Below are positions 20,883 to 53,225 of a stretch of DNA of 64,000 nt, piece after piece. The position numbers and the translations under genes are program-made. This stretch comes from a virus. Numbering within the stretch: position 1 is the first letter of the stretch; every line of letters starts with the position of its first letter. The notes under the pieces are model-generated. The model ran no database searches. It saw only the letters and a program-made list of their open reading frames with translations, and was not told the DNA's origin. The DNA is taken from positions 1 through 64,000 of IMG/VR virus record IMGVR_UViG_3300009285_003054, one strand, 5' to 3'.

Positions 20883-20890
20883 GTAAATCC

Positions 20891-21475: not shown

Positions 21476-21483
21476 TGTACACT

Positions 21484-21645
21484 CTACCCTCTAAATCCGA
21501 TAGTTAGTTTATGTGTTGTCGAATCCACGGATATTTCTTGAGATTCGACCCATACACAGCTCCTAGTACTATCCCTTGACCACCAGACCACCTCATACTG
21601 TATGAATCGCCCCAATCCCCTTACTGTAACGGCTGTTATCTCCAC
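21484..21645 (-). CDS. Small hypothetical phage protein
   Basis: The 53-residue frame from a GTG at 21645 encodes a beta-rich piece (EITAVTVRGLGRFIQYEVVWW...) with the look of a small conserved phage protein. An ATG at 21756 in the same frame would overlap the upstream metallopeptidase by about 100 bases, which seems unlikely. It is placed between that gene and queD. The function is unknown. Confidence 0.5.
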   Translation of the reverse strand: MEITAVTVRGLGRFIQYEVVWWSRDSTRSCVWVESQEISVDSTTHKLTIGFRG

Positions 21646-21652
21646 GAGTATA

Positions 21653-22624
21653 TCATTCCGAAGGATGCTCTTTGATCCATCGGTACATCCCTCGTGGAAC
21701 AGTGCACACCCCCACCCTGCTGCGTGCGGCTTTGTGTAAAGTCCGGGAGGACGCACTGTTTATAACCAGTGCTTCCACCCCATCTTTACTCTTTTTCCTC
21801 TTGAGCTTCGGGCGTACAATCTCATGTTCTTCCTCTGGTTCTTCTTCAGAGTCCCCTGCGTATCGTGCCTCCAATAGTCGATTCATTTTGGCCACTATTG
21901 GCCCCATCTTTGGGTAGCGTTCTGCTTCGTCTGTGAACATTTCGATATCGTGATCCCGTACACACCACACGCCTCTCTCGTTGCGATCACAGTGCATCAG
22001 TTCGTGATCACATAGCCATGTCTTCACTACAGGCTTAACAATCTCCCACACCCCTGCACAGAAAGTAATCTTGAAGTCGTATCCGGTCAAACGTCGGAAT
22101 TCCCCACCCAGTCTCTGGCAGAATCCCCACACCTCCCCCTGTACTCCGAAGGCGGCACCCATCTTGTCGGGCTCGTAGTCCTCCAGTACGAAGAGGATCC
22201 CAGCGTTGGCCAGGTGGTGGTGATACTGTACGATCAGGTCATCTGCCACCTTTCGGACATCCTGCCCTGCCTGCTCGACATTGCCCCCGAAGATTGACGC
22301 CCATGACTTCTGCAGGGTGGGCACCTGCGAGGGGAGCATGATAGGTTTGGCGTCTTCCCCACGTAGATTTCGGAGGTTGACGCGCAAGGTATACTCTCGG
22401 GAGGCAAATACGTCTTTCATTCGACGTAGGGCATCCATATTCCGAGGGTGATCTGGGTAGTAGTAAAACCCATCATTCCCGAAGAATGGATCGTCTTCCC
22501 CGTGGGCTTGGTAGAAGAGCATCCCCAAGTCGGTAGCATCTCCACTATCCAGATTTCCTTTGACATGCCGAAGAATGGGTTTATCTTTCGGTCCAAACGC
22601 GGTCCCCAGTAGAACTTTTTGCAT
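21653..22624 (-). CDS. Putative phage metallopeptidase (HExxH)
   Basis: The protein has 323 residues. Residues 183-225 read DFKITFCAGVWEIV...TWLCDHELMHC, then a WCVRDHDIEMF segment. The HELMH zinc site (His207, Glu208, His211) and the flanking pattern match the 'putative phage metallopeptidase' family. The N-terminal half has a separate domain with a YYYPDHP segment, and the C-terminal 80 residues are charged and likely disordered. The substrate is unknown. AGGAG before the ATG at 22624 supports the start. Confidence 0.75.
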   Translation of the reverse strand: MQKVLLGTAFGPKDKPILRHVKGNLDSGDATDLGMLFYQAHGEDDPFFGNDGFYYYPDHPRNMDALRRMKDVFASREYTLRVNLRNLRGEDAKPIMLPSQVPTLQKSWASIFGGNVEQAGQDVRKVADDLIVQYHHHLANAGILFVLEDYEPDKMGAAFGVQGEVWGFCQRLGGEFRRLTGYDFKITFCAGVWEIVKPVVKTWLCDHELMHCDRNERGVWCVRDHDIEMFTDEAERYPKMGPIVAKMNRLLEARYAGDSEEEPEEEHEIVRPKLKRKKSKDGVEALVINSASSRTLHKAARSRVGVCTVPRGMYRWIKEHPSE

Positions 22625-22632
22625 AGTATCTC

Positions 22633-23697
22633 CTAGAACATGGATTCGATGTTTTCTACTCTGTCGAAAGCGATGTCTGCAAACCCACCATAAGCTTGAA
22701 TATCTTTGATGAGTTTAATGACATGGCGGATGCATTCACAATATTGTTCGGTGACATAATGTAAACATCGGCATCCGCAGATATGCCTATCTGTACAGGT
22801 CAGACACACGCGAGACTCTGGGGTATCGCCGATTTGGATTTCCCGGTGATGGTGGAGTTGGGCTATTGGTCCGAGGCAAAACCTCGGATTAAGTATTTGC
22901 TCCGGGCAGGCATATACAATTCCATCATTGAACGCAGTCATGTGGTGCGTACCCGCACCACACCCTGCTACTAGATTTTCGAATGGATCATACAGTTGTG
23001 GGTACAGTAGTCTGTGTGCTACATTGTCAAACGGAACTAATATTACTCTTTCTTCTCCTGTTAGTAGTCGATGTACCCACCAGTCAACCAGCTCCGTAAG
23101 ATCGTGAAGTCTCTCCTGTAGATCCATCGCGTCTCCATCTGGACGATTTTGGAACTGCCAGTAGATCTTCGAGAAGTTCTTTGCTACCCCCAATACAGAC
23201 CGATATAGCCCTGCGGATGGGGTAATAGTCATTCTGGCAATCATTTCTACAGTTTTGTCATCTGTCATTGTTTGGAATTTTTGAACCTCTTTGGTTACTC
23301 TGTCAAAGGTACCTTCTCCTCTAGACATATCGTTATCATTTTTAGGACCGTCTATAGATATTTGAATTTGATCGAGATGGTTCCTGATGTATGGTGTCAT
23401 TTTCGATAGTAGTGTACCGTTGGTATGCAAGCCATAACGGACTCGAAATTTTCGAGTCCCACGGATCACAGCTTCGATCCACTCTTGATTAAGGAGTGGC
23501 TCCCCTCCAGTGAACGTTACGAAATCCCTTGGAAGACACATGTTCTGCACTGCAAAAATAGCAGTGGTCACCGGAAGAATTGGGTATTGGTGCATCCGAG
23601 TATCCACGCCGGATGATGACGTGGATCCTCTGCCCTGATAGCAGTACGAGCACCTGAGATTGCACTTTGAGGTTACACAGAATTCGACACTGGCCAT
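22633..23697 (-). CDS. Radical SAM enzyme with SPASM-type C-terminus
   Basis: The Fe-S motif CNLRCSYC lies at residues 12-19, then FTGGEPLL (SAM binding) and QISIDGP. The C-terminus carries cysteines in GCGAG, YACPEQ, and CLTCTDRHICGCRC, the SPASM arrangement that holds extra Fe-S clusters. Such enzymes modify peptides or other large substrates by radical chemistry. It is not QueE, which lacks SPASM and is shorter. It heads a group with two GNAT-like paralogues and an aminopropyltransferase-fold gene, so the substrate may be a modified base or polyamine-like side chain (inference). Confidence 0.88.
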   Translation of the reverse strand: MASVEFCVTSKCNLRCSYCYQGRGSTSSSGVDTRMHQYPILPVTTAIFAVQNMCLPRDFVTFTGGEPLLNQEWIEAVIRGTRKFRVRYGLHTNGTLLSKMTPYIRNHLDQIQISIDGPKNDNDMSRGEGTFDRVTKEVQKFQTMTDDKTVEMIARMTITPSAGLYRSVLGVAKNFSKIYWQFQNRPDGDAMDLQERLHDLTELVDWWVHRLLTGEERVILVPFDNVAHRLLYPQLYDPFENLVAGCGAGTHHMTAFNDGIVYACPEQILNPRFCLGPIAQLHHHREIQIGDTPESRVCLTCTDRHICGCRCLHYVTEQYCECIRHVIKLIKDIQAYGGFADIAFDRVENIESMF

Positions 23698-23748
23698 TAA
23701 TTACACCTTGTGGAAGTGTTATTTGTCCGACGGTTCTATCGAAACTCT

Positions 23749-24852
23749 CTATCTGGTCACATCGCCACTCCACCGAAGCCCTGGGATAGGGATTGTTCGA
23801 TCAGTGAATGCTTCTTTGTACTTATCCACAGATGCGTCCCAATTTGCTGCGATATCAACCACTCCTACTGGTGGGTATTCCATTGAGAATGCGCAGTCTA
23901 CAAACCGAATGAAAAGGTTAGGGACAATAGACAACCCCCGCAGGTCTGGTCTTTGTTTTGACATAACCAGCTCCAGGTTGGCTGCCATTTCCCGTGTGCT
24001 ATTTGTTTGGTAGCATTTTGGCATTGGCATTAATGTACCTCCAGCAAAACCAACTACCTCGCCACTAGGGAGTTTAGCGGTAACTGCTATCCCATAGCCA
24101 GCTCGAAGACATGGCAACAGCTGTGTCCCCAGATATATCTCGAAATCTGCTAGTGCTTGTGCTCTACAGAGTGTGGGACATTGGTAGAGTACCGGGAAGT
24201 CTACTGCTCTCTCAGGTGCCAAACCCATGAGTTCTTGGTATACCCGAGCATTCTCGGGTTCCCACCGATCCAAGAAATCGGGGAGTACTTCATGAGCATA
24301 TCCGGATGCGTTGGTGTAGTACGAAGTGTCATGTGTGGAAATATGCCCCGGCACATTTGAGTAGTATCCTACTTTTTTAGATTTCTCCCCATACACATGG
24401 GAAATATAGTCGAATCCCCGACTTTTAAGGGTGGTGCGTACCCAACTTTCTGTGTCTAACGGTCGATCGATCACGTGGGTTTTCCATCCATCTGAGACAC
24501 GCACCATCCCAAACTCGCTCCAAGGAACGTTCTCTGGAAGAAATCGCTCGAGGAGAAATTCGTTTTCGTATGTAAAAGTGGATACGCATGGTATCGTCTG
24601 AAAGGACGGGGTTCTACCTGCATCTATATCTTCAGACAATCCCACTCTCTCTACATCCTCCTGAATCGGACAAAACCATGTTTTGTCCGATTCATAGATG
24701 TAGAATTTTCGCATGCTCTTTCCACACAATGACAGAGGCAAGCCGGAAATCATTAGATCTATTGCTTGATCAAGCCCAAATTTGATCCCGCTGTACCAAG
24801 GGACAACGTCACGAAACCACGACAAAGGTTGATCTGTCATCTGAAATGCCAT
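23749..24852 (-). CDS. GNAT-like protein, paralogue 1
   Basis: This 367-residue protein is clearly related to the next gene (24853-25914). Shared blocks include (E/N)(S/P)D(K/E)(T/S)WFCPI near the start, VPW(S/D)(E/Q)FG in the middle and a shared (I/D)(P/V)PGLR ending. The C-terminal 130 residues look like a GNAT acyltransferase: an AVTAKLPSGEVVGFAGG strand pair, ELVMSKQRPDLRGLSIVPNL in the place of the acyl-CoA loop, and NWDASVDKYKEAF at the end. The N-terminal 200 residues are unrecognised. The start directly follows the upstream paralogue's TAA, with GGAG eight bases before. Confidence 0.7.
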   Translation of the reverse strand: MAFQMTDQPLSWFRDVVPWYSGIKFGLDQAIDLMISGLPLSLCGKSMRKFYIYESDKTWFCPIQEDVERVGLSEDIDAGRTPSFQTIPCVSTFTYENEFLLERFLPENVPWSEFGMVRVSDGWKTHVIDRPLDTESWVRTTLKSRGFDYISHVYGEKSKKVGYYSNVPGHISTHDTSYYTNASGYAHEVLPDFLDRWEPENARVYQELMGLAPERAVDFPVLYQCPTLCRAQALADFEIYLGTQLLPCLRAGYGIAVTAKLPSGEVVGFAGGTLMPMPKCYQTNSTREMAANLELVMSKQRPDLRGLSIVPNLFIRFVDCAFSMEYPPVGVVDIAANWDASVDKYKEAFTDRTIPIPGLRWSGDVTR

Positions 24853-25914
24853 TTACACAACTCCTTTCATACGGAGACCCGGGACATCAACCACTCGAGG
24901 GCGAAATGCCATTTTGTACTTGTCCAATCTCGTGTCGAAACTGGTCCCTAATGCCACGGCGGGCATATGCAGTTTCCAGAAGACATACTCAAACATCCGA
25001 AGAAAGAGCATTGGAACCAAGCCAAAGCTCCGGTACTTTTCTGATTTATTGGTCACCACCAGTTCGGTGGCAACGATACCCGGTCTATATTCTGATCCGT
25101 TATCTGTGTAAACGTTGTAACACCGTGCTGCTCTGGCGTACCTACACATGAGCATACCAACAGGATTACGCCCGTCACTGTACCTTACAGCAAAGGCACA
25201 CCCCCGTGTTAGCTCTGGCAGAAACGAGTGGTAAAAGTAAAGTTTGGGGTAAGTAGCGTCGGCAAAAAGAGACTCTCCTGACACAGCTTGTGGTAATCCG
25301 TCATCTATTCCTACAAGCGACGAGCTATTGGCTTTTTGACACCAGTATGATGTTAGGCTCGGAAGGAGTTGGTAGAATGTCTCCACTACTACTTCAGGTT
25401 TAGTGACCACATCCCACTGTAGCTCATTGGATCGACACCCATACACGCGGGATCGATAGTTCCCTCGGATGTGCTTGCTGACCCATTCGCAAAATGTGAT
25501 TTCTTGTCTTTCAGTTGGATTGTCTACTACAAGTTGTCGCCACCCAGTTGGGGTATACTCCAGCCCAAACTGGTCCCAGGGTATGTCCGGACGAACAAAC
25601 CATTCAAGGATGCTGTCATATGTCCCCTCGAAGTAGATCAGGCGCACTACCGGGATTATCTGCGCTCTTCCGGTGGTGTACATTTGTCCAATCTCTACTG
25701 TAGTGAAGATTGGACAAAACCATGACTCATCCGGGTTGAAAAGGTAGTATTTCTCCATGCCCGGATCCAACGGTTGCGTTTCCAGTCCGTACGCTATATC
25801 ATACACCAGTTTAGTCTGCAGAAACTCACCCATCTCGACGGTTTTGTCAAGTAGGCATTTTGAGAACCACGGGAGTGCCGATTCTGTTTTCTGAAACATA
25901 CTTTTACCTGTCAT
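24853..25914 (-). CDS. GNAT-like protein, paralogue 2
   Basis: The protein has 353 residues from the ATG at 25914, which overlaps the aminopropyltransferase stop as ATGA. It matches the downstream paralogue throughout, including SWFCPI, RSRVYG, ELVVTNKSEKYRSFGLVPML and SFDTRLDKYKMAF. The C-terminal third has the strand-helix order of GNAT acyltransferases; no acetyl-CoA loop can be proven by eye. Tandem divergence suggests two sequential or alternative acceptor substrates. The two genes are translated as a coupled chain with the neighbouring enzyme. Confidence 0.7.
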   Translation of the reverse strand: MTGKSMFQKTESALPWFSKCLLDKTVEMGEFLQTKLVYDIAYGLETQPLDPGMEKYYLFNPDESWFCPIFTTVEIGQMYTTGRAQIIPVVRLIYFEGTYDSILEWFVRPDIPWDQFGLEYTPTGWRQLVVDNPTERQEITFCEWVSKHIRGNYRSRVYGCRSNELQWDVVTKPEVVVETFYQLLPSLTSYWCQKANSSSLVGIDDGLPQAVSGESLFADATYPKLYFYHSFLPELTRGCAFAVRYSDGRNPVGMLMCRYARAARCYNVYTDNGSEYRPGIVATELVVTNKSEKYRSFGLVPMLFLRMFEYVFWKLHMPAVALGTSFDTRLDKYKMAFRPRVVDVPGLRMKGVV

Positions 25915-26684
25915 AGACAAACTCGAGTAAAATGGTAGAATGTCCAAAGTGACTCCGTGTCTACTAATACATCACCCCCTTTAAGCCACGTGCTATTCAG
26001 CAGCCGCACTGCCTCGGTGACTGTGTCCTTCCCTTGGATGCCAGCATACCCGACCTGTGCACAGAATATCCCATCCGATTTTAGAAGTAAAGCTACATCG
26101 TTGAAAAACTCCTTACTGAAGACTGCACACGGGTCACCGTCTGGCTCTGATAGGTCATATACAATTCCTGAGAAGCGCGTTGGTGTTAGGTAGATGTTTT
26201 TGACTACTTCTCGAACGTCACCATTAATCAGATTCACCCTCTTGGGGATTGCATCATCTGTGAAGACACCACCGGTTTCACCCTCGTCACCATCAGGTTG
26301 GTTCTGATATGTCCACCATTCCGGCATGTGATCTTTGGCCAACTTTTGAACATGTGGATCGATATCCACACCTGTTACATGACCCCACCCTGCATCCAGC
26401 AGTATCCGTATTGCTGCCCCGGGACCTGTGCCTAGAACTAATACGTGCTTCTCAGCCCGGTCAACCACACATAGTAGCGGCTTTACCAATGCCGAGTGGT
26501 AAGCATCTATTACCCTAGAGTTACTCTGCTCCCTTCCGTTGATCACCAACACTTTGTCACCACCTGTGGTGACAAAGATACCCACCTCGTTATGTACATC
26601 AGTGCTCCCATAGGAAAGCACTTGTTTCACGTCGAAGTGATGTCCCTGTCCGTCAGGGAACTCTACTGTGTATCGCAGCCCCAT
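25911..26684 (-). CDS. Spermidine synthase-fold aminopropyltransferase-like enzyme
   Basis: The 257 residues follow the polyamine aminopropyltransferase plan: an N-terminal beta domain with DKVLVINGREQSN, then YHSALVKPL (the usual YHE..vH.p region), the nucleotide loop VLVLGTGPGAAIRILL, VTGVDIDPHV, a VNLINGDVREVV stretch and the YDLSEPDGDP substrate segment. These enzymes move an aminopropyl group from decarboxylated SAM to an amine. YDLSEPDG replaces the typical D-x-x-D-P, so the acceptor may differ. AAGGAGG precedes the ATG at 26684. It is coupled to the GNAT-like pair. Confidence 0.82.
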   Translation of the reverse strand: MGLRYTVEFPDGQGHHFDVKQVLSYGSTDVHNEVGIFVTTGGDKVLVINGREQSNSRVIDAYHSALVKPLLCVVDRAEKHVLVLGTGPGAAIRILLDAGWGHVTGVDIDPHVQKLAKDHMPEWWTYQNQPDGDEGETGGVFTDDAIPKRVNLINGDVREVVKNIYLTPTRFSGIVYDLSEPDGDPCAVFSKEFFNDVALLLKSDGIFCAQVGYAGIQGKDTVTEAVRLLNSTWLKGGDVLVDTESLWTFYHFTRVCL

Positions 26685-26696
26685 AAATCCTCCTTG

Positions 26697-27188
26697 TTAT
26701 CGCAATAACATGCGATCTTCGGCTTGTGCGCAGGCCAAAAACGTTTTGGCCATGGCCATGATCACATGCCGCATTTCTGGCGGTGCTTCAATATACGCAT
26801 TCACATATACGTGATACGACTCTCTGGGGCAGTCGACTATATACTGCTGCTTACCCACGACTATGTGGTAAGCAGCTCGGAGGATCTCTGTTTTCTGCTT
26901 GAGGAACTCCGGAGTTACCTCGGGATAGCAAAATCGTTGTGCGAGCCCCTCCAGTAATTGGTGAGTACGAGAGTCTTGTTCTGCCAGAGTGCAACCACAC
27001 GACCGGCAATGTTGACAGATGTACCACAGGCAAGTCTGACACTGTTCGATCGCTCGAAAGAGTTTCGAGCACGACCAACAGGTATGAAACTCTTCACAGA
27101 AGTTATGCCCAGCACGCTCCCGTCGACATGTAGTGTTGGGTGTATCTATGGTGGCTTCGTGATCCAATAACCTTTCGAGGTAATGCAT
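26697..27188 (-). CDS. Cysteine-rich zinc-binding hypothetical protein
   Basis: The protein has 163 residues. Residues 20-70 carry many Cys and His in pairs (HTCWSC, CQTCLWYICQHC, CGCTL), fitting two or more zinc knuckles or a RING-like cross-brace. The C-terminal 90 residues are helical, with no recognised motif. It sits between the QueC-like and aminopropyltransferase genes in one operon, seven bases after the QueC-like stop. It may be a scaffold or nucleic-acid binder for the modification enzymes, but this is a guess. Confidence 0.72.
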   Translation of the reverse strand: MHYLERLLDHEATIDTPNTTCRRERAGHNFCEEFHTCWSCSKLFRAIEQCQTCLWYICQHCRSCGCTLAEQDSRTHQLLEGLAQRFCYPEVTPEFLKQKTEILRAAYHIVVGKQQYIVDCPRESYHVYVNAYIEAPPEMRHVIMAMAKTFLACAQAEDRMLLR

Positions 27189-27194
27189 CCTTGG

Positions 27195-28226
27195 TTATTC
27201 TCCCTTTTTTTCTGGTTTGAACATTTTATATACTCCGCTAGCGTATACTGCAAGGGGATGAGTAGTATGCGAAAGCTGCTGTACTAGCTCCCTTGCTAGA
27301 CGATTGGTGTACTCGCTAAGAGGATCAATAGTGCAAAGAAGAAGAGGATCTTCAATGCCAGCAGCGTGGAATCCCTTCTCCCGAAGTACTGTGGCAGGGT
27401 TGTCAGCAATGGGTGGCCATGCTCCGTTGTAGTCGGTGTGGGTGTACCGGAGCATTTGGAAGTAGTAGTCACCCATGTCGTGCAGTGCTATGACTTCCTC
27501 CGCCTTGGTCATGTGCATGAGCGGAGTAACGATACGAATGCGTCCGCCATGGAAAACCTCACGCCCAGGCTCCGCAGATTGGCTGTCATAATAGGAATCC
27601 ACAAATCCGATATGCTTGTCACCTCCGAGAGCAACACTGGCCGCCAACTCGAATGACCGGATGAAACCCTCCCGACAATCTGGATACCCGCTGTAGTCGG
27701 CTTCGCAGACTCCGGTCCAGATCTCAGAACACCCGAGGTTGGCGGCCAGTGCCACCGCTGCTGAGAGGAAAATCAGGTTGCGTCCCGGTACGAAGCTGTC
27801 TGGGAGACTGGGATCAAAATGGCTGGGGGCATTTCCGACTGTGTTACCCCGGTGTTTCTTTCTGACGGGAAAAGTAGCGTACCCTCCCAGCAAGTGGTAT
27901 TGTGGTTTCCTGTCGAAGTGGGTATTATGTGTGGTATCGATCAGTGTCGAAGTAGTGGTGATCTGTCCGAGGAAGCTCATGTCGAGTAGATACCAGCGCT
28001 TTTCGGCAGCCAAGACATGTGCCATTTTAGCGCCATTGGCGATGACTTGCGTCACGTACTCATCGGTTAACAGCTGTGCTAGTAACACCTCACGCAAATG
28101 CTTTTGCCCGTAATAGACCGACATGCAATAAATGTTCTCGGGTCCGTATTTCTTTAGGGCCATGGCTAGACAGGTAGTCGAGTCCTGACCGCCAGACAGA
28201 CATACAAGCGCTTTCGTTTTTCCCAT
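27195..28226 (-). CDS. queC: QueC-like preQ0 synthase variant without zinc cysteines
   Basis: QueC turns 7-carboxy-7-deazaguanine into preQ0 with ATP and ammonia. The PP-loop SGGQDSTT lies at residues 11-18, VPGRNLIFLSAAVALA and TGVCEADYSGYPDCR match the family, and AGIEDPLL lies near the C-terminus. Two features are odd. It has 343 residues rather than about 230, mostly through an insertion of roughly 70 residues after the first third. Also, the C-terminal four-cysteine zinc site is replaced by a YNGAWPPIADNPATVL stretch with no cysteine. The start is set by AAGAGG before the ATG at 28226. The product may be preQ0 or a relative. Confidence 0.85.
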   Translation of the reverse strand: MGKTKALVCLSGGQDSTTCLAMALKKYGPENIYCMSVYYGQKHLREVLLAQLLTDEYVTQVIANGAKMAHVLAAEKRWYLLDMSFLGQITTTSTLIDTTHNTHFDRKPQYHLLGGYATFPVRKKHRGNTVGNAPSHFDPSLPDSFVPGRNLIFLSAAVALAANLGCSEIWTGVCEADYSGYPDCREGFIRSFELAASVALGGDKHIGFVDSYYDSQSAEPGREVFHGGRIRIVTPLMHMTKAEEVIALHDMGDYYFQMLRYTHTDYNGAWPPIADNPATVLREKGFHAAGIEDPLLLCTIDPLSEYTNRLARELVQQLSHTTHPLAVYASGVYKMFKPEKKGE

Positions 28227-29083: not shown

Positions 29084-29416
29084 CTATCCACTCCTATCCA
29101 CCTGTCGAAGCAACTCCAGCTCTACCACAGTAGAAATCCCCGGGCATTCCCTATTATATTCAAACTCAGTCACCATTTTAGTGGTGTACCCACGCGCTCT
29201 CGATTCAAAGTATGCTGCTGCCGCACCAACCCCTAGAAAGGGTAGCGGATCTAAATCCCGCTGGATGTTTCTAACAAATTCATCTGTTTCAGGGGTGGAT
29301 GTATAAACAGCTTCCACCCGAGTGGTTACCCTGATCATCACCCCAGATGGTTCGTACAGTGGGTTACTTTTCTTTGCCGTGGATGGAAGCAACCGAAGGC
29401 GTCTTGACTGATTCAT
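29084..29416 (-). CDS. Hypothetical protein coupled to the DpdA-like gene
   Basis: This is a 110-residue frame whose ATG overlaps the DpdA-like stop (ATGA at 29413-29416), so it is made from the same message. The N-terminus is basic (SRRLRLLPSTAKK). The rest mixes strands and helices, with a GVGAAAAYFESRARG stretch. No family is recognised. The tight coupling suggests that it works with the transglycosylase. Confidence 0.7.
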   Translation of the reverse strand: MNQSRRLRLLPSTAKKSNPLYEPSGVMIRVTTRVEAVYTSTPETDEFVRNIQRDLDPLPFLGVGAAAAYFESRARGYTTKMVTEFEYNRECPGISTVVELELLRQVDRSG

Positions 29417-31383
29417 TTCCGACCGCCTTTCTTAACTGATCTCTTCAATCTCTTCCGCTTATACCGAGAACCCTGCCTCTTGTGCTTGAGGATGTTTTTT
29501 GCTTCCATCTCAGCATCAGTTACCAGGACTACCTCACCTATTCGTTCCCTCTTAGGCAGTGCTACACCATGCTGGACACAGAACAACCTTCGGGACTTGT
29601 TGTCTTTCAACTTGGCTAAGTCATCTCGTAAATCAGATGAGGCGTCTGTACCGGCACCGTCTGCTTCCCAGGACGTGCAGTATTGCTCTACCGCACGTCG
29701 ATAATCTACCTTTCCTAGGGAACGGTATTTGTACCGTTTCCTGGCCTTCTTGCGTTCCAACATTCTCTTCCGACCTTTAGTCGGTGGGTAGCATGTGAGC
29801 CCTAGCTCCAGAATCTCCTCGGGAGCTAGGTAGTTCGGGAGGGTGGTCTTCAGTAGACTAGGGAAGCTCTCTCCATTCATGAAGATGTTAGTGGCCCCGA
29901 TCTGCGAGAGAGGGTCATCCGCTTTCTCACCCTTCTTTCCGGGAAGGATGCTGTGAATCTGCCCCCCATTCCCCTGCTTCTCATAAACGAACAACATCTT
30001 GTGTTGTTCGAGAGCTGCGTCCATGTCTCCGTGAATACACTGTTCAATGAAGTCAATGATGAAATGTGCCCCGGAGTTGGTGGCATACGCCGCCTCATCC
30101 CGATACTGTTCCTCTGACATTGTGGCTGCGTTAGCTGCCCACATCTCAGTCATGCGGAGAGTTATCCAGATGTTGTGCCACCCTAGAAGTGTGTATAGTC
30201 TATAGCGTGACGGAAGTGTGAAGATATCCCATGTGGGAATACACCGGCATACCGGGCAGGAACATGGTAGAGGTGCCCCGATCACTGGAGCGACCTTACG
30301 GTTTATGTACTCCTGTTTGTTGCGCTCCCTTCCCATCGGGAAGGTGATCAGTTCACCTGACGGGAGTAGCGTCAGGTAACGATTATAACGGATACCCTGC
30401 ATCCACTGTGTGGAATCCACTGTAAATCGATCAATGTATCGCCCCAACCAAGCAAATGCCGGGATACGATGGGCCCCGGACATTGCAAAGAGATGCAGAT
30501 GTTGGTATGCTCGTTTGTAGCGTACATCCCCAGATCCGGTTCGTACCTTCCGGGTCTTCAACCAGGATGCGTTGGTAGTAGCATCTGCTTTGGTGGCATA
30601 GGATTTCTCTGGCCACGGTGCTTCTTTCAATGTCAAGATGCAATTTCGGAGGAGACTCAACTCCATCCAGTTTCCAGAGCCAATGCCCCACCCGTCCCAG
30701 TGGTTAAACTTCCCATCTCCTGATACCACTTTGAGAAAATTTCGAGCCTGTGCTATGTCAAATCCGTGAATCACGTTGAACAGCTTGACATCTGGCCCTC
30801 GAAGCTGTTCAAACACATCATTGTTGTGCGCTTGTGCAAGCGCACAAGCGTGGACTATCTTGTTCGATGCCTGGTCTACCTCCCGTGGTGGGATGTCTAG
30901 TGCCATTCCTATGTGAGCCCCTTTGTTGAAGTAACGAATGACATCTTCTGGTGGAATGTATGTAGTCTTTCCGGTATAAAGCTGTGCCCCACCAGAATCC
31001 CCGATGACCTCTAACCCAGACTTGTTCCATGTGATCATATCTTGGATTTGGATGCCTGGTCGGGCGCGTTCCATATCCCTTAACGACGCTTTGTCATTGA
31101 CGTTGTGTGCCGATACCAACACACTATTAAGCATTTTCCTCCCTACGGTGTCATCTTCGTAGGGAGAGAGATCTACCACCTCGTCCCACTCAGACATCTT
31201 CGGATAATCTTTGGGTTCCCAGACTATCAGGATTTCACGATCAGGAAAACGTGCAAATGTCACTTCTTTGCGGGGGATCTCGGCTTCCCATCCGTAGAGT
31301 AACCCGGTACGTTTCCAGCGGATATAAATCCGCATGGTAGTGATAGATCTTGGCCAACCGGCACTAGGTACCCACTCCAACAT
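29413..31383 (-). CDS. dpdA: DpdA-like DNA guanine transglycosylase (TGT superfamily)
   Basis: Proteins of this family swap guanine in DNA for a 7-deazaguanine, using the chemistry of tRNA-guanine transglycosylase. Of 656 residues, GDSGGAQ at 128-134 is the TGT active-site block with the general acid Asp129. DSTQWMQG near residue 327 is in the place of the second, nucleophilic Asp. The CSCPVCRC stretch near 382-389 with a later His fits the zinc site. The Lys/Arg-rich C-terminal tail could bind DNA. It starts at 31383 in a TAATG overlap with the upstream nuclease, with AGAGG before it. Together with QueD and QueC it points to deazaguanine in the phage DNA. Confidence 0.87.
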   Translation of the reverse strand: MLEWVPSAGWPRSITTMRIYIRWKRTGLLYGWEAEIPRKEVTFARFPDREILIVWEPKDYPKMSEWDEVVDLSPYEDDTVGRKMLNSVLVSAHNVNDKASLRDMERARPGIQIQDMITWNKSGLEVIGDSGGAQLYTGKTTYIPPEDVIRYFNKGAHIGMALDIPPREVDQASNKIVHACALAQAHNNDVFEQLRGPDVKLFNVIHGFDIAQARNFLKVVSGDGKFNHWDGWGIGSGNWMELSLLRNCILTLKEAPWPEKSYATKADATTNASWLKTRKVRTGSGDVRYKRAYQHLHLFAMSGAHRIPAFAWLGRYIDRFTVDSTQWMQGIRYNRYLTLLPSGELITFPMGRERNKQEYINRKVAPVIGAPLPCSCPVCRCIPTWDIFTLPSRYRLYTLLGWHNIWITLRMTEMWAANAATMSEEQYRDEAAYATNSGAHFIIDFIEQCIHGDMDAALEQHKMLFVYEKQGNGGQIHSILPGKKGEKADDPLSQIGATNIFMNGESFPSLLKTTLPNYLAPEEILELGLTCYPPTKGRKRMLERKKARKRYKYRSLGKVDYRRAVEQYCTSWEADGAGTDASSDLRDDLAKLKDNKSRRLFCVQHGVALPKRERIGEVVLVTDAEMEAKNILKHKRQGSRYKRKRLKRSVKKGGRK

Positions 31384-43246: not shown

Positions 43247-43272
43247 GGGTAATTTTTTTAGGGATGTTAACT

Positions 43273-44076
43273 ATGCAGAAAACCAGTACTAAGGTCAAGA
43301 CTTACTCCAGTATCCGAGGAAACAAAGGAAGGCCATCCCCGCAAGAAGAGCTAGTCAGAAAAGAACGGATGTTCCGACAAGATCCTACCAATATGTCGAT
43401 GGTAGACAAGTTACGTCTTGCTCGGAAATTGGCTGCCGAAGGGAAATCATCCAAGTTCATAGTCAGAAAGACCACCCTTATCTTAGAGGAAGCAAAGGCC
43501 ATTCGCGCGGCGGTACGTGGGGTTGAACTCCGCTCGAATCACATTCAGATCCTCAGGAGGAGTCTGCAGAAGATCACACAAGATCTTATTCCTCTAGCGG
43601 AGGCAGCCTACCAGGACTCACCTACTGGGTATAATGCCTCGGCTATTACCTCATTGTCTTCCGAGGCACGCTGTACTATTTCGGATATAGAGAATCTACA
43701 GCAACCCGAAACAACTGCACTAGAGATCATCCAGAACATCTTCCAACCGTTCTTAGCCGCAGTCATGAGAGAAACGGTTATGGAGGCTCGGAAAGCCAGA
43801 ACCGATAGTAGAGCTGTCTGCCCTTCGAGAGCCGCAGAGATAGCGGTTGACAGTGCTTTCAAAAAGATGAATTTGAGTCTTGGGGTAGCGTACAAGGGGC
43901 TCTATGCAGAATTCACAGAGAAACTCGGGATAGTCCTCAAATGCGACTTGCAGGAACTGCGTAACATGGCTACCAATGGGCGTAAAGTGGCTATGGATAA
44001 CAGTGATTCTGTGGACTCAGGCTCTAATGAACGGAGACCCTGGGAGGATGACAAGAGTTTTGAGTACGATACCTAA
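43273..44076 (+). CDS. Hypothetical helical protein with possible helix-turn-helix
   Basis: The protein has 267 residues from the ATG at 43273 (AGGG nine bases upstream); the ATG at 43264 is too close to that site. Residues 45-80 (DKLRLARKLAAEGKSSKFIVRKTTLILEE) could be a helix-turn-helix. The rest is helical and charged. Its place upstream of the terminase would suit a small terminase subunit, but three kilobases and minus-strand genes lie between. The function is unknown. It overlaps the next gene by about 29 bases. Confidence 0.65.
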   Translation: MQKTSTKVKTYSSIRGNKGRPSPQEELVRKERMFRQDPTNMSMVDKLRLARKLAAEGKSSKFIVRKTTLILEEAKAIRAAVRGVELRSNHIQILRRSLQKITQDLIPLAEAAYQDSPTGYNASAITSLSSEARCTISDIENLQQPETTALEIIQNIFQPFLAAVMRETVMEARKARTDSRAVCPSRAAEIAVDSAFKKMNLSLGVAYKGLYAEFTEKLGIVLKCDLQELRNMATNGRKVAMDNSDSVDSGSNERRPWEDDKSFEYDT

Positions 44077-44920
44077 GCTATCCCCTATCCGAAAGATCTA
44101 CTGGGAATTTGTCCGGGAGCGCAATCGAATCTTCGAGAAGAGAAGACAAGGGTGTACCTGGCCCTGGACATCTGACAGAGTATTGCAACAATATCGATTC
44201 ACCAATACTTATCGTTGGCTAGACCGTACAAGCCAGTACTTACTGCTTTTGCAAGAAAAAGCCCCACCCCGCGCCAAGATCCATGTAACTCTGTTATTCA
44301 AGCTTTTCAACTCGATAGACACCTGGGCAAATGTCTTGCGGGAGTTTCGCGATCCCCGCGACTACGACCCAGAGAGATGCGCCAACGCACTGGATAGTTA
44401 TGCACACTCCGGAAGGTGCATCTTCAGTGGGGCATATCTTATCCCGCCTATCCCATCCCTGGTCAAACCCGGAGAATCCAAAGCACGGGCTTACTGCCGC
44501 TTGGTACCCCTGTTGTCAGATGTGGTCAATCAGCACACCGTATCACACTGTGACATTTCGGTGATGTACCAAGCACTGCGTGAGCAACCTGGGATGGGGG
44601 ATTTCATGGCTATGCAATTGGCCACCGATCTTTCCTATGGGGTACCCGAGAAGATCTTGGATATGGGGGAGTTTGTAGTACCCGGTCCAGGTGCTATTCG
44701 TGGTGCGTACAAACTAGTGAGAAAGACAGTGTCGTCCGAGGGTACTGCGGATTTGATTCTGGAGCTATTTGAACAACAACTGCAACTTTGGCCACGGGGG
44801 TATGCTACCAACTATCCTTTGAATCTCTTCGGTATCCCGCTCTACGCCATGGACATCCAGAATACACTCTGTGAATTCGATAAGTACTGTCGGGTAGCCA
44901 GACACGAGCTAAGTGGGTGA
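44048..44920 (+). CDS. HMUDK-helical / aGPT-pyrophosphorylase family protein (thymine hypermodification)
   Basis: The 290 residues follow this family closely: IRKIYWEFVRERNRIFEKR, WPWTSDRVLQQYRFTNTYR, LLFKLFNSIDTWANVL, FSGAYLIPP, GMGDFMAMQLATDLSYG, EFVVPGPGA and a closing IQNTLCEFDKYCRVARHE. Relatives are the helical domain of 5-hydroxymethyl-dUMP DNA kinases and the predicted glutamyl/putrescinyl-thymine pyrophosphorylases, which act in building hypermodified thymine in phage DNA. No P-loop kinase domain is attached, so it probably acts after the kinase step or with a partner. The exact clade is not decided. The start is uncertain; the ATG at 44048 overlaps the previous gene. Confidence 0.82.
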   Translation: MTRVLSTIPKLSPIRKIYWEFVRERNRIFEKRRQGCTWPWTSDRVLQQYRFTNTYRWLDRTSQYLLLLQEKAPPRAKIHVTLLFKLFNSIDTWANVLREFRDPRDYDPERCANALDSYAHSGRCIFSGAYLIPPIPSLVKPGESKARAYCRLVPLLSDVVNQHTVSHCDISVMYQALREQPGMGDFMAMQLATDLSYGVPEKILDMGEFVVPGPGAIRGAYKLVRKTVSSEGTADLILELFEQQLQLWPRGYATNYPLNLFGIPLYAMDIQNTLCEFDKYCRVARHELSG

Positions 44921-45032: not shown

Positions 45033-45620
45033 ATGGCTAAGCGAATAACAATGGAGTACTTTGAGAAATACGCGCAAGGGATGCACTATTGTGAGGGTGG
45101 TGCAGAGCTGTATTTTGGCCCACAGGATGCTATCGCGATCCGGGACATCTGTGAGACTGTCTTCGGACTGCACATAATACGTATCCTGGACGCGGGAAGT
45201 GCCAATGGGTTCTCCACACACCTACTACGAAATCTAGGAATGGACGCAGTTGGGATTGAAATATGCCCCGAGATGCATGCTCAAACCCTGGAGTGTGTTC
45301 GACCCTACAACATTCTCGGGTCCATCACCAAGCTACCATTTGCACCCAATTCTTTCGATGTAGTGTGGACATCGGCACTCACATATCTCCCTACCCGAAA
45401 ACAGGTTCAGCAAGCACTCAAGGAGTTTGCTCGAGTGGGTGATTATCTGATTGCTTGGTTATTGACTGAGGACGAGGCACAGAAACGTAATGTCTACGAT
45501 GCATATGCCAACATCCGAATGACGTGTAGTGGGTGGGTTGCTGAGATTGAGAGATCAGGGCTTTGGGTGGAGGATGTAGCAAACCGAAAGTATGGGATGG
45601 TATTCCGGAGGAAAGCGTAG
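45033..45620 (+). CDS. Class I SAM-dependent methyltransferase
   Basis: The protein has 195 residues, with AAAGGAAA before the ATG. The SAM loop is ILDAGSANGFST near residue 50, then the acidic strand end AVGIEICPEM, and LPFAPNSFDVVWTSALTYLP as motifs IV-V. No DNA-specific NPPY motif is present, so small molecules, modified bases or proteins are possible substrates. It lies about 110 bases after the hypermodification-family gene. Confidence 0.8.
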   Translation: MAKRITMEYFEKYAQGMHYCEGGAELYFGPQDAIAIRDICETVFGLHIIRILDAGSANGFSTHLLRNLGMDAVGIEICPEMHAQTLECVRPYNILGSITKLPFAPNSFDVVWTSALTYLPTRKQVQQALKEFARVGDYLIAWLLTEDEAQKRNVYDAYANIRMTCSGWVAEIERSGLWVEDVANRKYGMVFRRKA

Positions 45621-47355: not shown

Positions 47356-49914
47356 ATGAACTCACCGTGTGTCCTACCTACCGATGTTGATCCAAAGCGT
47401 ATACTCCATGTAGTATACAATTCCTTGAGTATCAACGAGTTACAGCAGCTCTACGATCGATGTGGGAGATCTACCAAAGCCATGCGTATTTGCTTGGGAA
47501 TTCGGGGGGTAGTCTCAAGCAAAAAGCTCAGTAGGGACCTCTATGACAAAGGGGTCCTGCTCCATCCCGATGATATGCTTGACCAGAGGCTAGGGGTGGC
47601 GGGTAAGACTCGATTGGAACTGAGCAAATACGCTGTATTCGATTTGGGGGATGGCTTTGACCCTGAGTCGATGATGGAAGATGCCATCGATTCTGATCTT
47701 GATCCATCCGTGTTCTCTGACATGGACATCCGAGAACTAGACAACCCCCCTAATTTCTTCGAGTACGTCACCGGAAGGAAATACCTCAACACCACGATCT
47801 TCCCGAGACAGTTCCAGATTCAGCTTGGATTTTTTGAAGAATTTTGTCCGTGGTGTAGTGACAAAGAATTTGTCAAAGACATCCATCTATCACCCTATCC
47901 TTCAGAGGATGGTATACATCGGAGACCATGGACTAACGATGAAATCCTTAGCAAAGTAACCCTCTACCAACACGGCAAGTGTCCAAAGTGTAAGCGTACA
48001 TACATTGACGCTTTCAATGACCCTAGACAACCTCATCGTTTCCCCAAGGAAGTGGACGCTTGCATTGGGCAGCGGGGTGGAAAAACCCGCATGACCGAAC
48101 ACATGATGTCGTACAACGAGACACGCTTCCACCTGCTTTCCCCCTCGCCACAGCAATTCTTCGGAGAAGACGCCACCCAGAAGTTCTCAGCTATCTATAC
48201 CGCCCTGGAGATGACACAAGCGCAAGACACTCTTTGGGGGGCATACCATCTTCGGGTATTGGCTGCTCCGTGGTGGCACAACTACCACAAATGGTTGGAT
48301 CATCATGGCAAACGACTAGGAGTAGAACTCTATCGTATCAAAGAGACATACCATTTCTATGCGAACACATTGCTCCATAGTGTCCTACGTCCCCCATTTG
48401 CGAAGAAGATGCGAGGCCGAACATCCTTTGATGGTGGCATAGATGAGATTGGTATGTTCGCAAAAAGGGAGGGGAGCATCGTTGCAAATGCCGACGAAGT
48501 CCACAAATCTATCGGCAACAGCTTGATGACACTCCGGGGGAAAGCGGATCAGCTTCTCCGGAGAGGGGTATTGGGTGTTCCCGCACCCGCACTCTTCTGC
48601 ATTTCATCTCCGTGGGAACTCCTTGATAAGATTATGACACTGGTACGGACAGTTGACAAAGATCCTACCCGAGTAGCATACCACTATCCCACTTGGGATT
48701 TCAACCCAAATCTTCATCGAGATGATCCACAGATGGAAGCCGAGTTTCTCAACGATCCGGTGGCAGCAGAGAGAGACTTCGGAGCTATCCCCCCTTTTGC
48801 GAAAGATCCGTTCCACCCAGTTCCCGATGCAATTGATTACCTGGAGGTTCCCGCACTCCACCAAGTGTTCATCCAGCAGATTAAGTATTGCACCACAAAG
48901 AGCGGAAAGCGTTTGGTTTATGCCGTGCCTCTGCGTATGCAATCCGATCATGTTACACCCAGATTGCTATGCTTGGACGCTGGTGAGTCCGATAACTCAT
49001 TTGCATTGACTCTCTGGAGATTGGTGGATTTACCTGCTCCACCGGCAGACACCATGGCTGAGTCAGACGACGATGACGACGATGACGAGGATATCCGGGT
49101 GGTAATGGCGGCGATAGCAGCAGAGAAACACACGAAAGTACCTGGTGATGAGCATCGTGGCAGAGTTACTTACATGCAGCTCGACGGGGCTATTGAGGTA
49201 CAACCCTTTGTAAACGAAAGTGGATACCAGTATAGGGTGTCTTTCTCAAAGATGTGGAAGTACTGTATTGAACCCATCATTCGGGCATTCAATCTGGTGG
49301 GGGTTATTGGGGACCGGTGGAACATCACACAGATTATGAACTCAATTGAAGAGTTAGGGGTATACACCGAACAATACAGCTTGGTGTGGTCGGATTTCCT
49401 TGCATTCAAAGAGAAGACCAGTGCCCGCGAACTCCGACTCCCATCCCCCGAACGACCATTTACGGATGTCTACACAGACTACGACAAAGCTGTCCGTGGA
49501 GCACCGATTCTACATTTAGTCGTACAGTACAAGACTGTACGCCAAGTAGGGCGTACAGTTACCAAACCACCCAGCGGTACGGATGATCTTTACCGTACTA
49601 TGGTATTAGCACATCGGTTTGCCTTCAGTGAGAAGGCAGTCAAAGAGATTGACGGGAGGGAAATAAGCTTTTTCGAGCTGCTCCATCGTGAAGGAAAGAT
49701 GGAGCGAGTAAACCGCGCAGTTTCAGTTATCATGTTGCATGGTGGGAGTGGTAGCTCATCCCCAATGGCACAGGTGGGTGGTGGATTTACCCGGCTAGGT
49801 GGGTACGTTTCGAGGGGTGGTGCAGCTGGGGGGGTTACCGGTGGGAACTCATACTCTAACGTTGCCACCCACGGTGGGAAGGGTGGGGACAGTCCTAGTA
49901 CGCGGAGACAATGA
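47356..49914 (+). CDS. terL: Terminase large subunit with zinc-finger insertion
   Basis: This is the packaging motor and headful or site-specific nuclease. Of 852 residues, a Walker A-like IGQRGGKTRM lies near residue 238 and a Walker B-like SFDGGIDEIGMF near 360. The nuclease domain begins with RLLCLDAGESDNSF near 535. Two Cys pairs (FCPWC, KCPKC) before the ATPase core make a zinc insertion unusual for terminases. An acidic stretch of Asp near 575 sits inside the nuclease domain, and the C-terminus is Gly/Ser-rich. Gene order (terminase, portal, protease, scaffold, capsid) supports the call. Confidence 0.85.
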   Translation: MNSPCVLPTDVDPKRILHVVYNSLSINELQQLYDRCGRSTKAMRICLGIRGVVSSKKLSRDLYDKGVLLHPDDMLDQRLGVAGKTRLELSKYAVFDLGDGFDPESMMEDAIDSDLDPSVFSDMDIRELDNPPNFFEYVTGRKYLNTTIFPRQFQIQLGFFEEFCPWCSDKEFVKDIHLSPYPSEDGIHRRPWTNDEILSKVTLYQHGKCPKCKRTYIDAFNDPRQPHRFPKEVDACIGQRGGKTRMTEHMMSYNETRFHLLSPSPQQFFGEDATQKFSAIYTALEMTQAQDTLWGAYHLRVLAAPWWHNYHKWLDHHGKRLGVELYRIKETYHFYANTLLHSVLRPPFAKKMRGRTSFDGGIDEIGMFAKREGSIVANADEVHKSIGNSLMTLRGKADQLLRRGVLGVPAPALFCISSPWELLDKIMTLVRTVDKDPTRVAYHYPTWDFNPNLHRDDPQMEAEFLNDPVAAERDFGAIPPFAKDPFHPVPDAIDYLEVPALHQVFIQQIKYCTTKSGKRLVYAVPLRMQSDHVTPRLLCLDAGESDNSFALTLWRLVDLPAPPADTMAESDDDDDDDEDIRVVMAAIAAEKHTKVPGDEHRGRVTYMQLDGAIEVQPFVNESGYQYRVSFSKMWKYCIEPIIRAFNLVGVIGDRWNITQIMNSIEELGVYTEQYSLVWSDFLAFKEKTSARELRLPSPERPFTDVYTDYDKAVRGAPILHLVVQYKTVRQVGRTVTKPPSGTDDLYRTMVLAHRFAFSEKAVKEIDGREISFFELLHREGKMERVNRAVSVIMLHGGSGSSSPMAQVGGGFTRLGGYVSRGGAAGGVTGGNSYSNVATHGGKGGDSPSTRRQ

Positions 49915-50672: not shown

Positions 50673-53225
50673 ATGTTCAAGACATACGACCAGGACAAAT
50701 CCGGGCAACCCCTAGCTGGTCAGCCAGTGTCTGGTCTAGTGCGTACTGGAATTGTACATCATCGTGACTCCACACCTGCGTCCAGACCACCCACATCCCG
50801 TACACCATCTATCCGAACTGCTTCTACATCATCCTCCAGTAGCAGTGGGGGTGGTGGGTACGGGGTAGAGCGCTATAACCCCGCATTTGATCGTCTGGAT
50901 GAGGGGAGTGTAGTAGAAGACTGGATTCCCCGCGATCAACCAGGGATTAACAAGATGCTCCGGATGATCTACCTACGGGATGAGGTAGGTGGTCCGATGG
51001 TAGACATCTACAAAGAGATGGCATGGTCGGACTACGATCTGTTGGGGATGGAAGACAAAGAAATGCTCAGACCGTATGAGGATACGGCACGGTCGATGGA
51101 CTTCCTCTCAGTCCTCCCAGAGGTATCTTCCGAGGATCTGGTAATCGGACGGAGCATCAGCTCACTCCTTTGGGATGATACCAAAGGGATCTTTGTGGGA
51201 ATGGTGCCCCACGACCCTGATTTTTGTCGAATAACACCCATGCCTATCTTTGGGCATGACCCAATGGTTGACTTACGGGCGTCCCCAGGGTGGAAAGCGT
51301 TTGCTGACTCTGATGATGAGCGAGTAGTAGACGTAAGATCCACGCTGCCTCCCCGGATTATGGAGACCCTCTCTAATTCCGGATTCATCCCGTTGGATCC
51401 GATTAACACTGCCTTCATTCGGCGCCGTTGTGGTAGTTACGATCATGTAGGGACCTCAATTTACTCCCGCCTAGTGAACTTCATAGCCATCCAGAAAGCG
51501 TTGTTAGACACTACAGTAGTAAGTCTCAGACGGCGTGCAGCCGGAGTACTCCACATCATTGCCGGAGATGAGAGATGGGAGCCAACGCAAGAAGAACTCT
51601 CTGCTCTAGCAGGGATGTGGATGCAGGCCGAAGAGGACCAGGGTGGTGGGATTGTCGCTACCCGAAGTGGGGTTCAAGCAGATCGGGGGGCATCGGCTCA
51701 AGGGGATGCCTGGAAACTTTCGGACGAGTGGGCTTTTCTCTCCGAGGGGAAGATGCGGGCATTAGGAGTGTCAGACGCATTCTTAAGCGGAGAGAGCACG
51801 TTCTGCGTGGTTGGAAGTACACTGATTCTGACGAAGGATGGGCTGAAACGGATTGATTCCTTGGCTGATCGATCAAACGGGGATCACCAACACCTAAGAG
51901 TTCAAGTACAATCTCGGGATGGGCTTGGCTGGACGAGCCAATGGCACTACAACGGAGAAAAGCCTACTCTGATCTTGCATTTGGATAATGGCGCATCAAT
52001 CGAATGCACCTACAATCACAAAATCCTAACAGCATCTCTGGAGTATGTTGAAGCGGGCGAACTGCTTCCAGGGGACAGCGTACGAACATTTGATGGTGGG
52101 TATGGTTACGCCGTTATTACCCAGGTCATGGACAACGGGATCAAACCGGTTTACGATCTGACCATGGAAAAAGGATTTGAACCTGCGTTTGTGGCCAACG
52201 GGTTGGTCATCCATAACTCGAATATGGAAATGGCTTTGTCAGTTTTTCTGGAACGACTCCGTGGATTCCGTGAACACCTCACCAACCAGTTCATCTACCG
52301 TAGAATCTTTCACACCATCGCGAGGGCACATGGGTTCGTCCGTCCGGAAAAGAATACGCCCCACGGTAGAAGACAAGCTGCACTAATGCCCACCCGAGAG
52401 GCCATGAAAATCGATCCTACTCGGTTGATCGTTCCGGAGTTGCGGTGGCATAAGAGTTTGCACCCGGTGGGGGATGAGTCATACCTTACCATCCTTGATC
52501 GTATGAAAGAGGCTGGCTTACCGGTTACCCTGGAGCATTACGCATCAGCGGGAGGATTCAACCTTCGCCGGGCGATGACCATGCTGGACACTGATGTTAA
52601 GATGCGTGAGAAGCTCAAAGATTGGGTATCCGCCACCGGTGGGGGTGGGATGGGGATGGGTGGCTCCGAAGGAGGATCTGAGGGGGAAGATAGTGACGAA
52701 GGGGGAGGTGGCCCATCCATCTTCGGGAAAGTCCGATACCCATTGTCAGGGATCACCAAACGAAGTGAATTACGCACGGCTGCTCCCAGAGTGGTAGGAG
52801 AAATCCCCATCTGGGATCGCACCAACAAGTTCTGTGGTCTGTCGAAGCGGGAAGCGCAACAGGCGATGGAGAAGGTTATCCCCTGTATCCTCCGGGATGG
52901 GGGGAGACCCCCTACCAAGCAATTACTACTCGCATCTGGTTTGACGGGGCGGAAGGCGTCAGCTTTCCATTACTTACTTACCCGGACAGGACTCACACCT
53001 GAGTATGCAATGCCAGAAAAAGTGCAGATTAGTATTACAGAACACTTGGCCACCCGGACTAATAGGAAGACTGCACTTCAGGAGGTTCAAGCGTTGGCTA
53101 GATGTGCAAAAGCACAATCAACCTCCTCCCGGAAGAGCGACTCATTGGGCAGTCGAATCAGAGGACCTGAATTAACCCAACGTGAGTTTCTCACTGGACA
53201 CATTGAGAAAGAGATTCCGAAATGA
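50673..53225 (+). CDS. Portal protein interrupted by a mini-intein
   Basis: The 850-residue translation contains a 138-residue intein (separate entry), leaving a 712-residue portal. The first 70 residues are Ser/Thr/Pro-rich and flexible. The body has the portal-like YDLLGMEDKEM start and, after the intein, an SNMEMALSVFLERLRGFREHL segment. The joined sequence LSGESTF-SNMEMAL matches the conserved portal clip/stem motif. A Gly/Glu-rich linker is near residue 655. It sits between terminase and protease, as expected. The ribosome site at 50673 is weak. Confidence 0.85.
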   Translation: MFKTYDQDKSGQPLAGQPVSGLVRTGIVHHRDSTPASRPPTSRTPSIRTASTSSSSSSGGGGYGVERYNPAFDRLDEGSVVEDWIPRDQPGINKMLRMIYLRDEVGGPMVDIYKEMAWSDYDLLGMEDKEMLRPYEDTARSMDFLSVLPEVSSEDLVIGRSISSLLWDDTKGIFVGMVPHDPDFCRITPMPIFGHDPMVDLRASPGWKAFADSDDERVVDVRSTLPPRIMETLSNSGFIPLDPINTAFIRRRCGSYDHVGTSIYSRLVNFIAIQKALLDTTVVSLRRRAAGVLHIIAGDERWEPTQEELSALAGMWMQAEEDQGGGIVATRSGVQADRGASAQGDAWKLSDEWAFLSEGKMRALGVSDAFLSGESTFCVVGSTLILTKDGLKRIDSLADRSNGDHQHLRVQVQSRDGLGWTSQWHYNGEKPTLILHLDNGASIECTYNHKILTASLEYVEAGELLPGDSVRTFDGGYGYAVITQVMDNGIKPVYDLTMEKGFEPAFVANGLVIHNSNMEMALSVFLERLRGFREHLTNQFIYRRIFHTIARAHGFVRPEKNTPHGRRQAALMPTREAMKIDPTRLIVPELRWHKSLHPVGDESYLTILDRMKEAGLPVTLEHYASAGGFNLRRAMTMLDTDVKMREKLKDWVSATGGGGMGMGGSEGGSEGEDSDEGGGGPSIFGKVRYPLSGITKRSELRTAAPRVVGEIPIWDRTNKFCGLSKREAQQAMEKVIPCILRDGGRPPTKQLLLASGLTGRKASAFHYLLTRTGLTPEYAMPEKVQISITEHLATRTNRKTALQEVQALARCAKAQSTSSRKSDSLGSRIRGPELTQREFLTGHIEKEIPK
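51804..52217 (+). other. Mini-intein (no homing endonuclease) in the portal gene
   Basis: Splicing block A begins with Cys1 (CVVGSTLILTKDG), block B is SIECTYNHKILT, and blocks F/G are KPVYDLTMEKGFEPAFVANG then LVIHN, followed by Ser+1. All catalytic residues are present (Cys1, block B Thr and His, penultimate His, terminal Asn, Ser+1). At 138 residues there is no room for an endonuclease, so it can splice but not home. It sits in the highly conserved portal motif, typical of inteins. Confidence 0.92.

Follow-up and report, generated by a model that had tools for sequence, protein, structure and literature searches.

Phages in which a protein of the Pfam family PF18723 (HMUDK_hel) is encoded, the "5-hmdU DNA kinase, helical domain" that was earlier named aGPT-Pplase1, are the closest described counterparts of the locus reported here. 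In the Yuavirus phages M6 and SN1, which have the 5-hmdU kinase/5-NedU pathway, the same full-length Pfam family is represented by a stand-alone helical protein of ~300 aa, flanked by a PF18748 kinase, a dUMP hydroxymethylase, an amino acid:DNA transferase, and PLP and radical SAM enzymes. In Brevibacterium phage LuckyBarnes and related IMG/VR contigs, the protein adjoins a thymidylate synthase (TS)-like hydroxymethylase together with TAGT glycosyltransferases or a PF18751-type kinase.

The window, that is, the whole stretch of DNA that was analyzed, covers positions 1-64000 of a virus record that is 176,803 bases long. A preliminary description of the window had noted an HMUDK_hel gene beside a deazaguanine set and had proposed that hypermodified thymine is a second modified base of this genome. 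As described below, the HMUDK_hel gene is intact and the deazaguanine set is real; the proposed second base finds no support in the record.

An intact HMUDK_hel protein

The HMUDK_hel gene and the nearby genes referred to below are as follows:

43264-44076, plus strand, gene 5' of HMUDK_hel, from the ORF list, with a 29-base overlap with the HMUDK_hel start
44048-44920, plus strand, HMUDK_hel/aGPT-Pplase1-family protein of 290 aa, predicted helix-hairpin-helix (HhH) DNA-glycosylase-like fold
45033-45620, plus strand, SAM-dependent methyltransferase (Methyltransf_11 type, E=5.4e-13, assigned to the protein by sequence)
47356-49914, plus strand, terminase large subunit (tblastn E=4e-71)

The ORF at 44048-44920 is an intact member of the HMUDK_hel family, with a match far beyond chance, and the preliminary assignment is thereby confirmed. 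The protein matches PF18723 with an E-value of 1.7e-61 and 208.5 bits, as compared to a curated cut-off of 25 bits, over profile positions 2-280 of 281. It also matches phrog_2396 (E=1.6e-46), and no second domain was found with Pfam. Starting from an alternative ATG at 43976, the ORF would encode 314 aa. The gene is present in one copy in the 176.8-kb record. A tblastn search of GenBank gave at least 143 phages with relatives, all at 35% identity or less; the best matches were to LuckyBarnes and Microbacterium phages, followed by the Yuavirus phages. A single-protein search of IMG/VR revealed no close relatives, and a search of bacterial genomes gave zero confirmed relatives.

When the window protein is aligned with 32 relatives from IMG/VR (33 sequences in total), there are 14 invariant positions, and the window protein keeps every one: R25, R56, D59, K145, F186, D194, G213, P214, G215, G219, L274, C275, E276, and K279. 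The AlphaFold2 model built from this alignment is nearly all helix (pLDDT 86.5, pTM 0.85), and the fold is predicted to be of the HhH DNA-glycosylase type. The top match among solved structures, by VIA-align, is PUGT (PDB 8z2n) with a Z of 11.8, a value of ~12 being suggestive only for a mostly helical model, and the next matches are the HhH DNA glycosylases AGOG, Mag1, archaeal Ogg, and OGG1 (Z of 7-9). Foldseek searches of the model against the PDB gave insignificant E-values. Among the viral models in BFVD, structural matches were obtained to the 5-hmdU DNA kinase of Bacillus phage SP10, to a phiW-14 protein, and to a protein of Nodularia phage kac68; the 637 aa length of the SP10 kinase would be expected if the helical module is fused to the kinase there. 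At the sequence level, no relative was detected among solved structures (only RadA noise, E of 0.24), and profile-profile comparison with six ADDT-type proteins was insignificant.

The segment QPGMGDFMAMQ is similar to the HhH motif found in the HhH glycosylases. Aligned by eye with Nth, the HhH-like P181-G-M-G presumably places Phe186 at the position of Nth Lys120 and the GPG of residues 213-215 near the Asp site. Read by eye in the same register, the invariant Asp194 sits away from the position of the glycosylase catalytic Asp. Since this by-eye register puts an invariant Phe at the catalytic Lys site and GPG in the Asp region, we doubt that the protein has glycosylase activity.

Genomic company of HMUDK_hel relatives

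The gene contexts of relatives were collected from 39 IMG/VR loci, found by searching with the window and LuckyBarnes proteins. A TS-superfamily gene (PF00303) is present in 37 of the 39 records, although several loci are near-duplicates and the counts are thus not fully independent; the two records that lack it are fragments of 4.1 and 5.9 kb. Six of the seven GenBank phages tested also carry the gene. In the 35 loci where both were called, the HMUDK_hel and TS genes are co-stranded and lie a median of 384 bp apart. An Asp at the third position ahead of the catalytic Cys, where Escherichia coli ThyA has Leu, has been described as a hallmark of T4 dCMP hydroxymethylase, and the Trp83 and Asn/Asp criteria for hydroxymethylase signatures come from the same source (PMC6400193). 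The TS proteins of 30/39 relatives have this Asp, the solvent-gating Trp83 (E. coli ThyA) is lost in 39/39, and 38/39 retain Asn177, which determines dUMP specificity. By these residues, the TS-superfamily proteins near HMUDK_hel look like hydroxymethylases.

The sole Asp at the Asn177 position was observed in the TS-superfamily enzyme of Microbacterium phage GreenIvy (L010:5013-5768), which carries HMUDK_hel and glycosyltransferases too. This substitution leads us to predict a dCMP hydroxymethylase and a 5hmC-based hypermodification in GreenIvy, and the HMUDK_hel family may also serve cytosine.

The enzymes downstream of the hydroxymethylase fall into two branches. Members of two glycosyltransferase groups occur in 25 of 46 loci, and all three glycosyltransferases tested from these groups match PF20691 (TAGT). 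A P-loop kinase occurs in about a dozen of the 46, either of the PF18748 family or of PF18751 with ADDT and PLP genes. With either a P-loop kinase or a glycosyltransferase of the TET-associated kind as the downstream enzyme, PF18723 is not kinase-specific; rather, it tracks hydroxymethylpyrimidine pathways of both branches, including the one predicted dCMP case. The tie to 5-hydroxymethylpyrimidine pathways drawn in the preliminary description therefore stands, on the TS-superfamily gene counts given above; given the glycosyltransferase pairings and the predicted dCMP hydroxymethylase, membership of the family is not in itself a pointer to amino- or polyamine-bearing thymines.

A phylogenetic tree places the window protein in a clade of 15 rows (support 100/99) that also holds kac68, LuckyBarnes, the Microbacterium phages, and some of the IMG/VR loci in the range L015 to L028. 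Both the kinase and glycosyltransferase branches are found in this clade. The idea that the clade is kinase-free was ruled out, as a divergent PF18751-type kinase, together with ADDT and PLP genes, is found in L021, L026, and L028.

The usual partners are absent from the record

The preliminary description had found no kinase and no hydroxymethylase in the window, and both are missing from the whole 176.8-kb record as well. When the full record was searched in six frames for these families, there was no match to PF00303 (TS/hydroxymethylase), Thy1 (ThyX), the Tet_JBP oxygenase, the HMUDK_HMUD1 kinase PF18748, TAGT PF20691, or ADDT PF18724. Likewise, Pfam scans of the 144 called proteins gave none of these families and no 2-oxoglutarate oxygenase. 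Nothing in the record matched profiles made from the TS (37 phage sequences), kinase, second kinase, ADDT, PLP, and glycosyltransferase proteins of the relatives, profiles of PNK and of PF18751-type kinases among them. The PF00303 model still detects the divergent Microbacterium phage enzymes, and a highly divergent hydroxymethylase or transferase could escape homology searches. HMUDK_hel in this phage is thus an orphan module without its usual partners.

The full-genome search for a dUMP hydroxymethylase and a 5-hmdU kinase, which had been suggested as a check of the hypermodified thymine proposal, found neither; this is the genomic half of the outcome that had been named as counting against it. 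Enzymes of either downstream branch were not found in the record, and the proposal is not upheld. A second modified base may still be made, but the genes of this phage do not demonstrate one.

The completeness of the record bears on these searches, and its two ends carry the same repeat:

1-203, no strand, 12-bp tandem array (GACTTGATYCCY type), also at the other record end (176731-176803)

The repeat occurs as an array only at the two record ends. The simplest reading is that a circular or permuted genome was broken within the array. The record is probably nearly closed with little missing, and an unassembled piece is possible.

Deazaguanine genes and phage kinship

The genes of the deazaguanine set, and others that lie among them, are listed below:

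20891-21475, minus strand, QueD/PTPS (PF01242, E=8.6e-23, assigned to the protein by sequence)
22633-23697, minus strand, radical SAM protein with a C-terminal Cys cluster, SPASM-like (PF04055, E=8.3e-15; phrog_1802)
25911-26684, minus strand, spermidine-synthase-like protein within the deazaguanine cluster (PF01564, E=5.9e-14)
27195-28226, minus strand, QueC, 7-cyano-7-deazaguanine synthase (PF06508, E=1.4e-40)
29413-31383, minus strand, TGT/DpdA-like protein, candidate deazaguanine transglycosylase (weak PF01702 match, below the cut-off)
record 125132-125848, QueE-like radical SAM protein (CNLHCRWC motif)
record 158652-159122, FolE (PF01227)

The preliminary description was right about this set, with QueC, QueD, and the TGT/DpdA-like protein in the window and the QueE-like protein and FolE elsewhere, so that the preQ0 synthesis genes FolE, QueD, QueE-like, and QueC are all in the record. 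The radical SAM protein at 22633-23697, with its SPASM-like C-terminal Cys cluster, is not the QueE candidate. The TGT/DpdA-like protein is homologous to annotated TGT proteins of phages GR7B and Motura; a single-protein search of IMG/VR with it gave no close relatives. As its PF01702 score is below the cut-off, DpdA function is likely, not proved. The gene has a primase and a Cas4-like exonuclease beside it, the homologue in Peetri has the same two kinds of neighbor, and the NCTB and GR7B homologues have a primase nearby. Deazaguanine probably replaces part of the guanines of this phage. The cluster at 20091-28226 also encodes two paralogues (23749-24852 and 24853-25947) that are 30% identical and, at 20091-20882, an RNA-ligase-like protein; structure prediction of the paralogues (23749-25947) gave an unusable pLDDT of 34. 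It is possible that the cluster tailors a 7-deazaguanine. Two N6/N4 DNA methyltransferases (PF01555) were also noted, at 19176-20048 in the window and at L004:2923-3705, and plain methylation is therefore likely as well.

The terminase ties the phage to the jumbo-type phages Voja-6, NCTB, PaBG, and RHph_I42. HMUDK_hel is absent from the related jumbo-type phages NCTB, PaBG, Motura, GR7B, Peetri, and RHph_I42, which suggests that the gene was probably acquired by transfer in this lineage. Next to HMUDK_hel, the overlapping gene at 43264-44076 has no PHROG match, and the methyltransferase at 45033-45620 lies 112 bases 3' on the same strand with one weak phage match. This methyltransferase is the nearest candidate partner of HMUDK_hel, a pairing that is a guess.

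Elsewhere in the record, a DNA polymerase A at 121401-124499 has an N-terminal uracil-DNA-glycosylase (UDG) domain (PF03167, E=2e-23). As a marker of 5-hmU phages the UDG-PolA fusion was ruled out, there being no UDG match in the loci of the relatives. The record also encodes a dCTP-deaminase-like protein at 114777-115646, yet thymidylate synthase and ThyX were not found in it.

What the orphan module might do

Our current, tentative hypothesis, put at a little under an even chance, is that HMUDK_hel is a base-flipping module of the HhH-glycosylase fold whose partners are absent here and which has been redeployed beside another enzyme. In the relatives, the protein would bind DNA, flip out the 5-hydroxymethylpyrimidine made by the neighboring TS-like hydroxymethylase, and present the flipped base to a transferase, either a 5-hmdU kinase of the P-loop type or a glycosyltransferase associated with TET; we infer base flipping and presentation from the fold prediction and the gene neighborhoods. 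In this phage, the orphan would most likely serve as the base-flipping, DNA-binding partner of another phage enzyme, as suggested by the absence of the usual partners. Candidates for the substitute partner are the deazaguanine tailoring genes and the SAM methyltransferase next to HMUDK_hel, and the choice between them is a guess. The dCTP deaminase would fit a dUMP-directed pathway and counts against redeployment. A further reading, to which we give about one chance in four and which dispenses with any hydroxymethylpyrimidine, is that the orphan was recruited to another, undescribed DNA-base tailoring reaction, in which case the family label would be wrong for an entire orphan subgroup, the Nodularia phages among them.

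It seems rather unlikely that the phage makes a 5-hmU- or 5-hydroxymethylcytosine-derived base through an unrecognisably divergent or host-supplied hydroxymethylase and an unrecognised transferase, with HMUDK_hel serving that pathway; the preliminary description would then be essentially correct. The very strong linkage of HMUDK_hel to hydroxymethylases, the retention of all 14 invariants, and the presence of a UDG-PolA fusion and a dCTP deaminase, two proteins that touch uracil metabolism, would agree with such a pathway. However, the record gave no PF00303, Thy1, Tet_JBP, HMUDK_HMUD1, ADDT, or TAGT match, even though the PF00303 model reaches the divergent Microbacterium enzymes, the phage profile from 37 relatives finds nothing, and the UDG domain is unmatched among proteins of the hydroxymethylase-bearing relatives' loci. 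A role in superinfection exclusion, where the orphan would recognise, and perhaps excise, hydroxymethylated or hypermodified bases in the DNA of a competing phage, seems improbable to us. We know of no phage example. The predicted glycosylase-like fold and the lack of a modified-pyrimidine pathway of the phage's own to protect would suit this role, and bacteria do have a base-excision defence against modified-base phages in Brig1-3; however, the fold of Brig3 is AAG-like and mixed alpha/beta, unlike that of HMUDK_hel (PMC13160076). Moreover, Phe186 and GPG occupy, in the by-eye register, the sites of the catalytic Lys and Asp, with Asp194 elsewhere. The least probable reading is that HMUDK_hel is a relic, decaying or neutral, of an ancestral pathway that lost its other genes. 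Every known partner gene is indeed missing, and transfer is probable given the related jumbo-type phages without the gene. Against decay, the full-length frame is intact and all invariants are kept despite <35% identity to any relative, which decay would not preserve, and the GC content by codon position resembles that of neighboring genes.

Comparison with known systems

The best solved fold match, PUGT, is the 5-PmdU (5-phosphomethyl-dU) glycinyltransferase gp46 of phage PaMx11 (PDB 8z2n/8z2m). It aligns with residues 16-284 of the window protein at an rmsd of 3.7 over 217 aligned residues with 11% identity; unlike the HMUDK_hel protein, PUGT belongs to the related ADDT/aGPT transferases. 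Homologues of the enzymes that flank HMUDK_hel in the Yuavirus phages were not found in the record. LuckyBarnes and the related IMG/VR contigs are the nearest GenBank relatives (32% identity) and share the 15-row clade, yet the window phage is without the hydroxymethylase, glycosyltransferases, and kinase that adjoin the gene there.

A second orphan was found in the Nodularia phages. The complete 145.4-kb genome of kac68 (Ravarandavirus) encodes an HMUDK_hel protein (E=3.6e-61) that is identical in vB_NpeS-2AV2, and has no TS/hydroxymethylase, HMUDK kinase, TAGT, or ADDT. Thus kac68, like the window phage, has HMUDK_hel without hydroxymethylase or transferases. The two phages differ in that kac68 encodes ThyX and lacks QueC, whereas ThyX is missing from the window phage, which carries the deazaguanine set. 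In the tree, their HMUDK_hel proteins pair up on long branches, a weakly supported grouping (82/75). Besides HMUDK_hel, the two phages have in common only a DnaX-like protein and, marginally, a match to a protein annotated as intein-containing, and with so few shared genes no common substitute partner emerged. One window protein, probably that of 50673-53225, matches the intein splicing domain PF14890 (E=1.8e-6), and 50673-53225 weakly matches the intein-containing RNR of kac68.

The name of PF18723 invites its reading as evidence for a 5-hmdU kinase or hypermodified thymine. At least two phage lineages carry HMUDK_hel without any of the pathway branches, and caution is warranted, as an HMUDK_hel gene alone is insufficient for calling a second modified base. 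Set beside the Yuavirus and LuckyBarnes systems, the window phage and the isolated Nodularia phages provide two compact cases in which the activity of the module can be considered apart from its usual partners.
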